Shown here piece after piece: positions 4,356-9,397 of a DNA stretch of 32,592 bases (positions are counted from its first letter, which is position 1; each line of letters starts with the position of its first letter). A model generated the notes under the pieces. It was not told the DNA's origin and made no database searches. It saw only the letters and a program-made list of their open reading frames with translations. Origin of the DNA: Candidatus Peregrinibacteria bacterium (GTDB lineage Bacteria; Patescibacteriota; Gracilibacteria; UM-FILTER-43-11); the NCBI GenBank assembly GCA_016932495.1, contig JAFGCR010000019.1:1-32592 (forward strand), written 5' to 3'. A program made the translations under genes and the position numbers.

Positions 4356-4847
4356 TTAAAGCAAATCTTTGATTTTTTCAATCACCTCCTGCCGGGTGCG
4401 GGCGATGTGTATTTTCTGTTCATCCAGTTTTCTAAAAAACGCCTTACTTTCCTCGTTATCGGAAAACAGGATAACGTTTTTCTCTGCCTTGAGCGCCAAG
4501 GCGATTTCCGAGGCGGTCCCCGAACCTATTCCGCAGGCGATCACCACATCACTTGTCAGTACATTAATGCTGTTCCGGGCACTTCCCATATTGGTGATGA
4601 TAGCAATATCCACATAATCCGAGGTCTCACTGGTATCCGGTCCGGGCATCACGCCGATCACCAGGCCCCCCGCCTCCTGCGCACCCCGGCTGGCCGCGTC
4701 CATTACCCCCACATTCCGGCCGCCTGTTAAAAGGACCCATTTATTCTCTGCAATCATTCGCCCTAATTCATGTGCATTTTCCACATCCTTTTCTTTGGCA
4801 TGGTCTCCTGGCCCCATAATTCCGATGATGGTCTTACGTTTGATCAT
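4356..4847 (-). CDS. SLOG/LOG-like nucleotide-binding protein (TIGR00725-like)
   Basis: A 163-aa Rossmann-like protein. It has the glycine-rich pattern LLTGGRNVGVMDAASRGA (39-56) and GSGTASEIALAL (about 107-118), typical of the SLOG superfamily that includes lysine-decarboxylase-like LOG phosphoribohydrolases, TIGR00725 proteins and the DprA core. It lacks the PGGxGTxxE form of true LOG enzymes; GSGTASE is closer to TIGR00725. Family members bind or cleave nucleotide-like ligands; the ligand here is unknown. The ATG starts directly after the stop of the hydrolase gene (0 bp gap), so the two are almost certainly cotranscribed and perhaps translationally coupled. Confidence 0.85.
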   Translation of the reverse strand: MIKRKTIIGIMGPGDHAKEKDVENAHELGRMIAENKWVLLTGGRNVGVMDAASRGAQEAGGLVIGVMPGPDTSETSDYVDIAIITNMGSARNSINVLTSDVVIACGIGSGTASEIALALKAEKNVILFSDNEESKAFFRKLDEQKIHIARTRQEVIEKIKDLL

Positions 4848-5644: not shown

Positions 5645-6019
5645 TTAAAGTTTCAATTCTAAATCTGACAATTCTGCCTCTAGCGCCCTTTGTTTTAAGA
5701 ACTCCCTTAGCGCCATGATGATCGTAAAGCGCTTAAAAGATGTTTCCACTTCAGCTTCCCGGCTTGCTATTTCATCATATGGCAGGGCGCCCATTAAGTT
5801 CTGTCTGATTCGTTCGCGTGGTACTTGCCTGCTAGCCAGCCTTTCTTTAATGTCACTTTTTTTTGTGAAATCAAAAATATCCCGCGGATCCATGCTCATC
5901 CCCAGCCCAATATCGTAAATCGTGTTTAAATCTTCTGTCGGGATGTTTACATGGCTCATTTGGTGAACAAATTCTTCGCGGTTAAGAGGTTTTTTAGGGT
6001 CTTCGGGTACCGTTTCCAT
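5645..6019 (-). CDS. Hypothetical 124-aa protein, divergent from the TPR-RelA/SpoT-like gene
   Basis: Soluble, charged, mainly helical protein with no recognisable domain, signal peptide or membrane segment. The C-terminal 40 residues (FKRFTIIMALREFLKQ, then a Leu/Glu-rich end) look like an amphipathic helix. It is transcribed away from the gene at 6117 from a promoter whose -35 overlaps that gene's -35, which suggests linked expression. I do not recognise it. A partner or antitoxin-like role for the RelA/SpoT-like protein is possible only by position and is speculative. Confidence 0.75.
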   Translation of the reverse strand: METVPEDPKKPLNREEFVHQMSHVNIPTEDLNTIYDIGLGMSMDPRDIFDFTKKSDIKERLASRQVPRERIRQNLMGALPYDEIASREAEVETSFKRFTIIMALREFLKQRALEAELSDLELKL

Positions 6020-6043: not shown

Positions 6044-6072
6044 ATTGTAAAACATAAATTATCTTTTGACAA
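6044..6072 (-). promoter_or_regulatory. Promoter of the 124-aa gene (shares -35 DNA with the divergent promoter)
   Basis: Minus strand: TTGTCA (6072-6067), a 17-bp spacer, TACAAT (6049-6044). Predicted start is near 6037, a leader of about 18 nt. The -35 lies on the same bases as the plus-strand TTGACA at 6066-6071. Confidence 0.6.
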
Positions 6073-6116: not shown

Positions 6117-8252
6117 ATGTCAGAACATGATTCTCCCCGCCACGAAGAGGCTGAGCGTTATTTTGAACGTGCCCAGATCATGCTCGAATCCAGGCTGGCC
6201 TCCCGCGAAGAAGCAATGGAAAGTGCATTAAATAACGCAAAAAAGGCGTTTGAACTTCATCCGGAAAACCCCAATTACTTTAATTTGTTTTTGCAGGTTA
6301 CGTTAGCAACCCGTCAGTCTATCTGCCGCTTGGGGGTTGATGCCGCACTTGATGCCGCTTTGCAGAATCCTGATTGCCGTGAAGTGGCTTTTTATATCAT
6401 TGCACATGTCCGTCTTCAGGTAATGGAAGTTATGGATAATGATTTTGATTTGCTTAAAAAGTTTTCTTTTGGCGGGGAAATCGATTTGCTGGAAAAATTG
6501 ATCACCATTGATCGTCGGCCTGATGCTTTGCACACTCTTTATCTTTTTTATAAATTGTCCGGTCGTCAGCATGAGGGCATGGCATTTTTTAAAGAAGCCG
6601 CTGAAACAAAGCCTGAAAATTACGGTTCTTATTACATTATGGCGTGCAAAAATCAGGAGCGTTATCAGGAGCTTATTGAATATTATGAGAAAAATGAAGC
6701 TGTTTTACTGCCCATGATGTCTGATGATCACAAAACAGTGGTTGCCATTGCTTACGAAAAGCGGGCAGCTGGTTTGGAGTGGCAGGACCGGATCCGGTTT
6801 GAAAACGAAGGGATGCCTGCCGACTCTCTGGATGATTATCGTAAATCTAAAGCTATTTATCAGCGTATCGCTCAACCTTACGAATCCTTGCTGACCGGCG
6901 GACAGCCTGTCACATCTGAGGGGTCGGTCGCCCTTATTAATTATGCCCAGATCCATGTGCTGGAGGCCCAATGTATTCAGCATTCGGCTGATGAGCAGAT
7001 CGACAAAACGACTGCCCTTGAGTTAAAGCGTAAAGCCCTCGCTATTTTAAATCCGCTCATTGAACGGATGAGCGCAATCGGTTATCCCGAATCTTCTGAT
7101 TTATATCGCCATTTACTGCTTGCCAAAACTCATGTATTGAGCGCTTCCTCGGATGTCCGCTTGGGAATAGAAGCGGTCGAACGAGCTATCGCTTTTGCTA
7201 AGGAATTGCAAGGCGATAAAGTTTTTCTAGCACTTTCGTTTGCCGATATTCTCCCCAATAATTTATCCGGTCTGCTGCACATTCGTAACCATTTACTCGG
7301 CAAGGAAACCGATCCTGAGCTGGAAGAGGAACTTCTGTGCCAGTCGCTTGTCGGGAATTGGAAAAATTTGCAAAGTTACGCTCCGTTGGTGCAGTTTTAC
7401 CTGAAAACAGGTGATAATGAAATGGCGCATCGGATTGAGCAAGTCTGCGCTTTGGTTCCCTTTCTGGAAAACCTGATTAAACTGGATAAATTCGGTCGTC
7501 AGGATTTTGACAATTGCGCTTTGGGTATTGCGCAGGCACCAGAAAGTCATGATGTTAAAACTTACAATGCCGCCCTTCAGAAAGTTTATGACTCCCTGCA
7601 GGTCACCCATGTTGCCCTAGAAGAACATTTGAAGCCTTTGCACGATGCTTTTGAGCCTTTCCGTGAGTCTTATAAGGCATATTTGGCAAAGATCGCTCCG
7701 GAAAATGCGCTGATTGATTCACGTCTGAAAATGACTTACTCCGTTATTTTGAAATTGCTTAAAGAAAGAAATGTGGCAGTTCCGGATGTAACTGATTTTT
7801 TGGCCTTTCGGGTTTTAACTGATACGGAAGAGGAAGCCCGGGTGCTTTATGAAAAAGTCCGCCTTGGAATGAGGAAAGATAGATCCATGAAAGAATGGAT
7901 CACTATTGATAAACCTACCAAAACCAATTATCGGTCTATGGATATTACCGGCACTATCCAGGGTGATGATATTCAATTGCAAGTCCAGATCCGCTCAAAA
8001 GCTATTGATGCGGAAATCAGCGCCGGTTTCGCGCACCATGGTTATTATAAGCGGGAGTCCGGGTGGAAACTGGAGGAGGCAATCAATAAAAATCCCATTC
8101 CTTATTTATGGCTCCTCAATGAGATCGTTCTTACTTTGGGCAATGCGTATCGTTTTATCCGTGATTCAGAAACACCCCTTACTTTGCATGAACTTCTTGA
8201 GATTTATCGCGATCCTCCTTTACCGCATTTGCCGGATCAGCCAAGCAGATGA
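6117..8252 (+). CDS. TPR-rich protein with C-terminal RelA/SpoT-like nucleotidyltransferase domain
   Basis: About 711 aa. The N-terminal 500 residues are helical with TPR-like units (for example KKAFELHPENPNYFNLF). Residues about 535-655 match the (p)ppGpp synthetase domain order: RLK..YS (R536, K538), TDFLAFRV (D560), K-rich then YRSMD (605-609), VQIRS (623-627) and GFAHHGYYK. Known synthetases make (p)ppGpp from ATP and GTP/GDP; some toxic relatives modify other substrates, including tRNA. Two expected residues differ: Gln622 replaces the Glu of E-V-Q-I-R-T, and Asp609 replaces the His of YxSxH. Activity is therefore uncertain. There is no HD hydrolase, TGS or ACT domain. The ATG at 6117 is chosen because a promoter covers the upstream frame. 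The 3' end overlaps the converging transporter gene by 16 bp. Confidence 0.8.
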   Translation: MSEHDSPRHEEAERYFERAQIMLESRLASREEAMESALNNAKKAFELHPENPNYFNLFLQVTLATRQSICRLGVDAALDAALQNPDCREVAFYIIAHVRLQVMEVMDNDFDLLKKFSFGGEIDLLEKLITIDRRPDALHTLYLFYKLSGRQHEGMAFFKEAAETKPENYGSYYIMACKNQERYQELIEYYEKNEAVLLPMMSDDHKTVVAIAYEKRAAGLEWQDRIRFENEGMPADSLDDYRKSKAIYQRIAQPYESLLTGGQPVTSEGSVALINYAQIHVLEAQCIQHSADEQIDKTTALELKRKALAILNPLIERMSAIGYPESSDLYRHLLLAKTHVLSASSDVRLGIEAVERAIAFAKELQGDKVFLALSFADILPNNLSGLLHIRNHLLGKETDPELEEELLCQSLVGNWKNLQSYAPLVQFYLKTGDNEMAHRIEQVCALVPFLENLIKLDKFGRQDFDNCALGIAQAPESHDVKTYNAALQKVYDSLQVTHVALEEHLKPLHDAFEPFRESYKAYLAKIAPENALIDSRLKMTYSVILKLLKERNVAVPDVTDFLAFRVLTDTEEEARVLYEKVRLGMRKDRSMKEWITIDKPTKTNYRSMDITGTIQGDDIQLQVQIRSKAIDAEISAGFAHHGYYKRESGWKLEEAINKNPIPYLWLLNEIVLTLGNAYRFIRDSETPLTLHELLEIYRDPPLPHLPDQPSR

Positions 8253-9397
8253 TCACTTCGTCTGAGCGTAAGCCACCCCATCAGCATAAACGCGCCCATC
8301 GCGATCACCAGCCACAGGAAACGGTCCGGCAGGAACAGGAAGGCGGTTGCCAGTATGGCACTGCTGATTAACCGTGCGATGGTCAGATAGATCTCACGGT
8401 TCAGATTAAAATGGACGGGATGGATTTTGTTGCCGTAAGCGTATAAGTATGAGTCGGCAAACGTCTGGTGCATGGTTTCGGCAAAGCGGTTGAATAACTG
8501 AACGCCCCATACGTAAATCAGGTGCGGATAAATGCCGACTGACGCGTATAAAAATGCCCCCAGCGACCGGATAAAAGTTAATCGTGAAAATATAACAATG
8601 CGTTTTCGTTTGTCGAACCAATGTCCGGACAGCCTTGTCAGCAGAGTGGCCACAAGGGTCGTTACGCCGACCAATATACCCAATTCCTTAATATTCCCAA
8701 TAAACAGGGCAAAAGCCAGTATCCAGGCATTGCTGATGAAATGCTGAGTAAATCCCTCCCAGAAATGCGCCGGCCGGATGGCTTTGAGTTCAGGTTTCCC
8801 CAGCGTTGTCCTGATTTCTTTAAGGCCATAGGTGCCGTCATGTGCCGGCGCGTGGAAAAACAGGATGGGGATCAAGCTTAATAGTCCTGCCAGGCTGCCT
8901 AAAATAAAAGTCGCGTTAAAAGAAACCCGGAAACTCACCCATCCTCCGATAATCGGCGCTGCGAATCCGGTGATTATTTTAATAATAGCGAGCCAGCTCA
9001 TCTGCTTGCCGATTCTCCGGTAATCTGTGTTCGTCGCGAAAAACCAATGCCGTATCATCCAGTAAAAACTGATATACAGGGTCATAAAAATGGTCGCGGG
9101 GATGATCATCCGTATATTGTCGGTCGTTGTCTGTCCGAAAAACCATAGCGACAGTACGTAAAAAACCATCCCCATGGCCATAAAATATTTAGGCTTTCTG
9201 GATTTCATGGCCAGGTTGAATACAGGAATGAACAACAAAGCGTAAAACACGTTCCAGATGAAGGTAAAAGTAAACACGGCGCTGATAGAATGGAAAAGCT
9301 GATAGATAAAAATAGGCAGCACAATAATCAGCATGGTGTCGCTGAACTGAAAAAGGGTTTCATGGGTGTAAAAAAGGTGGAGGTTGCGCTGTTTCAT
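8237..9397 (-). CDS. Major facilitator superfamily-type membrane transporter
   Basis: A 386-aa integral membrane protein with about 12 hydrophobic segments spread over the whole length, in two halves separated by a polar loop near residues 187-210 (HAPAHDGTYGLKEIRTTLGK). A short basic motif after a TM segment (GHWFDKRKR) resembles the cytoplasmic G..xDR/K.RR loop of MFS carriers. Length and topology fit the family; the substrate is unknown. It is preceded by the tRNA spacer and converges on the RelA/SpoT-like gene, with a TGA stop inside that gene's 3' end. No Shine-Dalgarno precedes the ATG. Confidence 0.82.
   Translation of the reverse strand: MKQRNLHLFYTHETLFQFSDTMLIIVLPIFIYQLFHSISAVFTFTFIWNVFYALLFIPVFNLAMKSRKPKYFMAMGMVFYVLSLWFFGQTTTDNIRMIIPATIFMTLYISFYWMIRHWFFATNTDYRRIGKQMSWLAIIKIITGFAAPIIGGWVSFRVSFNATFILGSLAGLLSLIPILFFHAPAHDGTYGLKEIRTTLGKPELKAIRPAHFWEGFTQHFISNAWILAFALFIGNIKELGILVGVTTLVATLLTRLSGHWFDKRKRIVIFSRLTFIRSLGAFLYASVGIYPHLIYVWGVQLFNRFAETMHQTFADSYLYAYGNKIHPVHFNLNREIYLTIARLISSAILATAFLFLPDRFLWLVIAMGAFMLMGWLTLRRSDHLLG

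Follow-up and report, generated by a model that had tools for sequence, protein, structure and literature searches.

The window, the whole stretch of 32,592 nucleotides that was analysed, is contig C33 of a 1.175-Mb genome that is 98% complete. The gene under study lies on the forward strand at 6117..8252, where an intact open reading frame encodes a protein of 711 aa with a TPR-like N-terminal part, a RelA/SpoT synthetase (SYNTH) domain and a C-terminal module (hereafter TPR-SYNTH). The ATG at 6117 is backed by the orthologue from a second species of the same genus (L003), in which the aligned Met is the start codon. A TTG further upstream, at 6066, was merely the mechanical longest start, and the orthologue alignment favoured the ATG. 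A promoter scan of the sequence gave no signal above chance.

TPR-SYNTH is flanked by a divergent gene of 124 aa (5645..6019, reverse strand) and by a convergent MFS transporter gene (8237..9397, reverse strand), the 3' end of which overlaps the TPR-SYNTH coding sequence. We propose neither the former as an antitoxin nor the latter as part of a system. The 124-aa gene had no Pfam match and no match in 144 other genomes of the phylum, but its orthologue occupies the same place in L003. The transporter gene is likewise arranged there, so that the genes directly flanking the L003 orthologue on either side match those of the window. No adjacent co-directional gene was found at the window locus. 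The surrounding region is core genome, with genes for a PheS-like synthetase subunit and an RpiB-like isomerase together with rpoB, rpoC, rpsL, ssb and dprA. A gene for a SLOG cluster 4 (LDcluster4) protein (4356-4847, reverse strand) was also observed near TPR-SYNTH, adjoining an alpha/beta hydrolase gene; it is absent from the L003 open reading frames listed at the corresponding place.

The SYNTH domain (residues 535-647; 7719..8057, forward strand) matched PF04607 (RelA_SpoT) at 2e-13 with 51 bits. Since this is well over the cut-off of 27, the order of the synthetase motifs is not a matter of chance; R536-L-K538, D560-FLAF-R565-V, Y605-R-S-M-D609, Q622-V-Q-I-R626 and H641..Y644-K645 all stand where the earlier note had placed them. 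All four members of the family described below exceeded the same cut-off, and in a profile-profile comparison the family profile matched canonical Rel with 98.3% probability at 21% identity. A 225-residue model of the domain was predicted with AlphaFold from a shallow alignment of 16 rows, including Rel rows from viral contigs. Its mean pLDDT was 71, most of the core scoring above 70, and the predicted structural elements follow a SYNTH-like order. When PDB structures were searched with this model, 50 of the 50 matches listed were RSH or GTP-pyrophosphokinase-family chains, among them RelP, RelQ, RelSeq, RelA and SpoT (TM 0.33-0.52 by query length), and comparison with the RelSeq-pppGpp structure gave an rmsd of about 3 Å over 140 columns. 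A structural match to the RelA/SpoT fold, which had been set as a test of the claim, was thus obtained with the predicted model, and a SYNTH fold is supported, the match being not independent of the homology claim because Rel rows were part of the model's alignment. Pfam, profile-profile comparison and structure search therefore agree with the earlier description, in which a TPR-like part is joined to a divergent RelA/SpoT domain. The HD hydrolase and the TGS and ACT parts, said to be missing, were indeed not found in the open reading frame by Pfam search.

Residues 6-345 (6132..7151, forward strand) are predicted to form a TPR-like helical solenoid. In an AlphaFold2 model of the full-length protein built on a two-row alignment, residues 6-215 and about 240-345 took the form of successive helical hairpins, most clearly over residues 6-215; block pLDDT was about 52-91. 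The top Foldseek matches of the model include the TPR superhelices of OGT (1w3b), Ctr9 and Ski3; the whole-model TM-scores against TPR structures were low because the C-terminal half of the model, over residues 365-711, is unreliable. A phmmer search of the PDB with the whole protein returned chiefly designed TPR proteins with weak E-values and did not pick up the SYNTH part, for which a profile was required. The Pfam TPR models gave matches below threshold only. As these curated cut-offs were missed, we term the protein TPR-like rather than TPR, and a helix-hairpin solenoid resembling known TPR structures is supported by the model. Of the roughly 500 residues of TPR-like helices proposed earlier, the two blocks up to about residue 345 were modelled and matched TPR structures, while residues 365-490 are helical only at low confidence. 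They fall within a helical linker of uncertain structure (residues 346-530; 7152..7706, forward strand), which has low pLDDT and is less conserved between the two orthologues (identity about 0.5-0.7 by block). The protein ends in a family-specific helical module (residues 648-711; 8058..8249, forward strand), modelled at low confidence, with a pattern conserved in all four homologues.

The active-site residues were placed by alignment with RelSeq. In that numbering the catalytic carboxylates are D264 and E323, the adenine is held between R241 and R269, and Y308 stacks on the guanine (PMC7983052); in RelP the equivalents Asp107 and Glu174 hold Mg (PMC5794853). TPR-SYNTH retains R241 (R536), K243 (K538), S247 (S542), K251 (K546), D264 (Asp560; 7794..7796, forward strand), R269 (R565), K297 (K592), Y308 (Tyr605; 7929..7931, forward strand), S310 (S607), Q325 (Q624) and R327 (R626). 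The arginine pair of the ATP site and the G-loop tyrosine are therefore complete. Altered positions are H244 to Met, Y299 to Trp, G307 to Asn, H312 to Asp609 (7941..7943, forward strand) and E323, which corresponds to E335 of RelA, to Gln622 (7980..7982, forward strand), leaving the carboxylate pair incomplete. These assignments confirm the reading of Gln622 as the catalytic Glu of EVQIRT and of Asp609 as the His of YxSLH. Synthetase activity of RelSeq is eliminated by D264G and by E323Q (PMC13299517), and RelA'-E335Q has been employed as a catalytic mutant (PMC4432633); the natural Gln622 is thus the same change as the laboratory knock-out. Among 78 distinct SYNTH-like rows read from the retrieved loci, a set that excludes two distant homologues detected later, Glu occupied the E323 position in 72, Gln there and Asp at the H312 position were found only in the fusion pair, and the remainder were gaps or a spurious frame.

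The search for the same fusion in other genomes, suggested by the earlier note, yielded a family. A SYNTH-domain profile run over the complete class recovered four members among 353 genomes: the window protein, its orthologue in L003 (64% identical, with both Gln and Asp), and homologues from G676 (L160:4590-6716, 708 aa) and G577 (L161:5019-6875, 618 aa), which belong to families different from that of the window genome. The two distant members were recovered only in this way; when the whole protein was searched against 98 relatives, and a full-length profile of two rows against 380 genomes of the phylum, the genus pair alone came up besides SYNTH-domain matches of other proteins. Both distant proteins align along the length of the window protein, the N-terminus of the G577 protein being shorter and poorly aligned; the C-terminal module is common to all four members, and each open reading frame is intact. 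In a tree built from 84 SYNTH domains, a single branch (100/99) sets the four apart from the remaining sequences; it is to be read with a long-branch warning, and the order of the four rows is not settled. No member was found in a second class (306 genomes), where the weak matches, mostly in open reading frames of about 480-530 aa, are taken as short Rels. Sampled genomes of other classes contained no family member, nothing related to the fusion turned up in viral contigs, and phages and plasmids gave SYNTH-domain matches only. We found no report of a TPR-SYNTH fusion in the open-access literature.

Residues K243, S247, K251, D264, Y308, S310, Q325 and R327 (RelSeq numbering) are common to all four members. 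In the order window, genus mate, G676 and G577, the E323 position reads Q, Q, E, Q, the H312 position D, D, A, D, the R241 position R, R, G, R and the R269 position R, R, R, T. Gln622 is accordingly conserved in three of the four, and the G676 protein has Glu. That protein (R241G, H312A) has lost the adenine-stacking Arg and contains both carboxylates, while G577 has the substitutions E323Q, R269T and H312D. Every member is therefore without some catalytic or donor-site residue, and the set differs between members. Between the two orthologues dN/dS was about 0.16-0.2 for the coding sequence (NG86, LWL85), indicating purifying selection. Identity was 77% in the SYNTH domain and 60% in the N-terminus; within the domain, 21 of 22 pocket positions were identical against 74 of 99 elsewhere, a marginal difference (p=0.04) for a residue list chosen by the authors.

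A normal Rel of 723 aa is encoded in the window genome (L001:388-2559), with HD, RelA_SpoT, TGS and ACT all over cut-off, and Rel-type RelA_SpoT matches are present in all four member genomes. In G676 a further open reading frame of 530 aa was observed with a moderate RelA_SpoT match of 58 bits (G676:C43:3441-3758, L169). An in-frame TGA lies within the RelA_SpoT match in several genomes of this class, which points to the inclusion of Gracilibacteria-like recoded lineages in this class.

Taken together, we lean slightly towards the view that TPR-SYNTH represents a rare family of one Patescibacteria class in which an alarmone-synthetase domain has been turned into a binding module, probably non-catalytic. 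The higher conservation of the SYNTH domain over the N-terminus, and of the pocket over the rest of the domain, favours a binding module. Differing losses in the donor and catalytic sites, combined with retained phosphate and guanine contacts, are the pattern that the aligned residues of an enzyme-derived binding module would be expected to display, though not proof of one. Judging from the published mutants of homologues, without the catalytic Glu pyrophosphate transfer would be absent or almost so. The pocket may still accept a purine nucleotide: ATP could occupy the donor site, and/or GTP, GDP or (p)ppGpp could be held through the G-loop Tyr605 and the Lys, Arg and Gln phosphate contacts. 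Nucleotide occupancy could alter the SYNTH and C-terminal module, and the TPR-like solenoid might relay this change to a protein partner, with the alarmone itself presumably made by the cell's normal Rel. An inactive nucleotide sensor, among the three functions offered earlier, is the best supported, given a Glu-to-Gln change published as dead and differing active-site losses in the homologues. Against a non-catalytic family stand the D and E carboxylates kept in G676, so that loss of activity need not extend to the whole family, and the Asp at a neighbouring position in the three Gln members, which could replace the missing carboxylate.

This last point leads to the rival that survives best, which we nevertheless consider rather unlikely: an active, perhaps weak, enzyme in which the strand adjacent to Gln622 supplies Asp609 for the Mg and 3'-OH job of Glu323, possibly with acceptor specificity changed to another nucleotide or to RNA. 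Asp pairs with Gln in all three Gln members while the Glu-keeping member has Ala, the remaining catalytic and phosphate residues are present in the window protein, and H312 and Q325 of RelSeq both contact pppGpp, so that position 609 is probably pocket-facing. However, as the order of the four rows is not settled, the Gln/Asp pair may have a single origin; Asp is shorter than Glu, and R269 is also gone in G577. To our knowledge, no RSH has such an arrangement.

It is improbable that the fusion is a decaying remnant that is losing its function and has no current role. Its rarity (4/353 genomes), the loss of different residues in different members and the long branches would fit decay, but intact open reading frames in all members, the low dN/dS with a SYNTH part better conserved than the rest, and a C-terminal module kept across families argue against it.

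The reading as a toxin, the least probable of all, would make TPR-SYNTH a toxSAS-kind toxin or anti-phage effector whose TPR part would sense the phage or act as an inbuilt inhibitor, comparable to the zinc-finger part of CapRel; SYNTH domains can indeed act as conflict effectors, as in toxSAS and CapRel, the distribution is patchy and PADLOC matched residues 496-628 to the candidate PDC-S33, but that match, its sole one of note, is weak (28 bits), the catalytic Glu is absent in three of four members, no phage or plasmid relative extends beyond the SYNTH domain, and the window locus lies stably among core genes in synteny within the genus. No adjacent operonic antitoxin gene, as expected for toxSAS, was seen, and the flanking genes differ between lineages: G676 has a divergent gene of no assigned family and a convergent NHL-repeat gene, and G577 a co-directional gene for a HEAT-repeat protein upstream and a convergent gene downstream. 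With no recurrent partner gene among the four loci and core-genome surroundings in the window, the setting argues against a toxin-antitoxin or defence-island locus, and a toxin-antitoxin toxin is not supported.

The RSH proteins known so far synthesize or degrade (p)ppGpp. With the long RSH proteins (Rel, RelA and SpoT, for example RelSeq, 1vj7) the window protein has the SYNTH fold and most pocket residues in common, whereas it lacks the defining HD, TGS and ACT domains, has Gln for the catalytic Glu, and has a TPR-like N-terminus and C-terminal module of its own. RelP (SAS2), the best Foldseek E-value among the matches listed, and RelQ (SAS1) are likewise SYNTH proteins without a hydrolase, but they are tetramers of about 200 aa with Asp and Glu intact; TPR-SYNTH, whose 711 aa include about 500 additional residues at the N-terminus, is not a short, single-domain stand-alone SAS. 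The toxSAS proteins FaRel2, PhRel2 and CapRel share the SYNTH domain, which in CapRel is fused to a sensing and inhibiting domain, whereas neither an antitoxin gene nor a zinc-finger part was seen here, the Glu is lost and the locus is in the core genome. The RelA'-E335Q and RelSeq E323Q mutants have the identical substitution at the identical position, but the Gln here is natural and occurs in two congeneric species as well as in a distant third.

If the binding-module reading is true, it would mean that a SYNTH fold can take on a new role as a receptor for nucleotides or alarmones, and this in genomes so small that accessory genes come at a cost. A natural receptor derived from a pyrophosphokinase, with catalysis lost and pocket kept, that reports the (p)ppGpp or purine level through a TPR-like scaffold is a possible but doubtful form of it; we found no report of stringent-signal reading by such a receptor. 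Here a natural, conserved family with the laboratory 'dead' substitution coexists with a normal Rel encoded by the same genome, and its Gln/Asp pair poses the biochemical question whether a catalytic carboxylate can shift one strand over.

The additional weak RelA_SpoT matches from the window's family were either spurious or belonged to other divergent proteins, and none was this fusion. L104, L105 and L110 (G010, G005 and G004) are open reading frames of 508-562 aa that combine a long N-terminal part with a divergent C-terminus resembling RelA_SpoT, where YELQIF, YEMQIF or YEFQIF replaces the EVQIRT motif; they are probably another unstudied RSH-like group in the taxonomic family of the window genome. 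L102 (G007:C74) and L103 (G015:C23), of 910 and 1295 aa, have weak RelA_SpoT matches near the C-terminus with the motif EVQLQT or ELQMHL, and L103 has a second open reading frame nearby with a near-copy of the domain. By eye, both look like secreted-effector arrangements.
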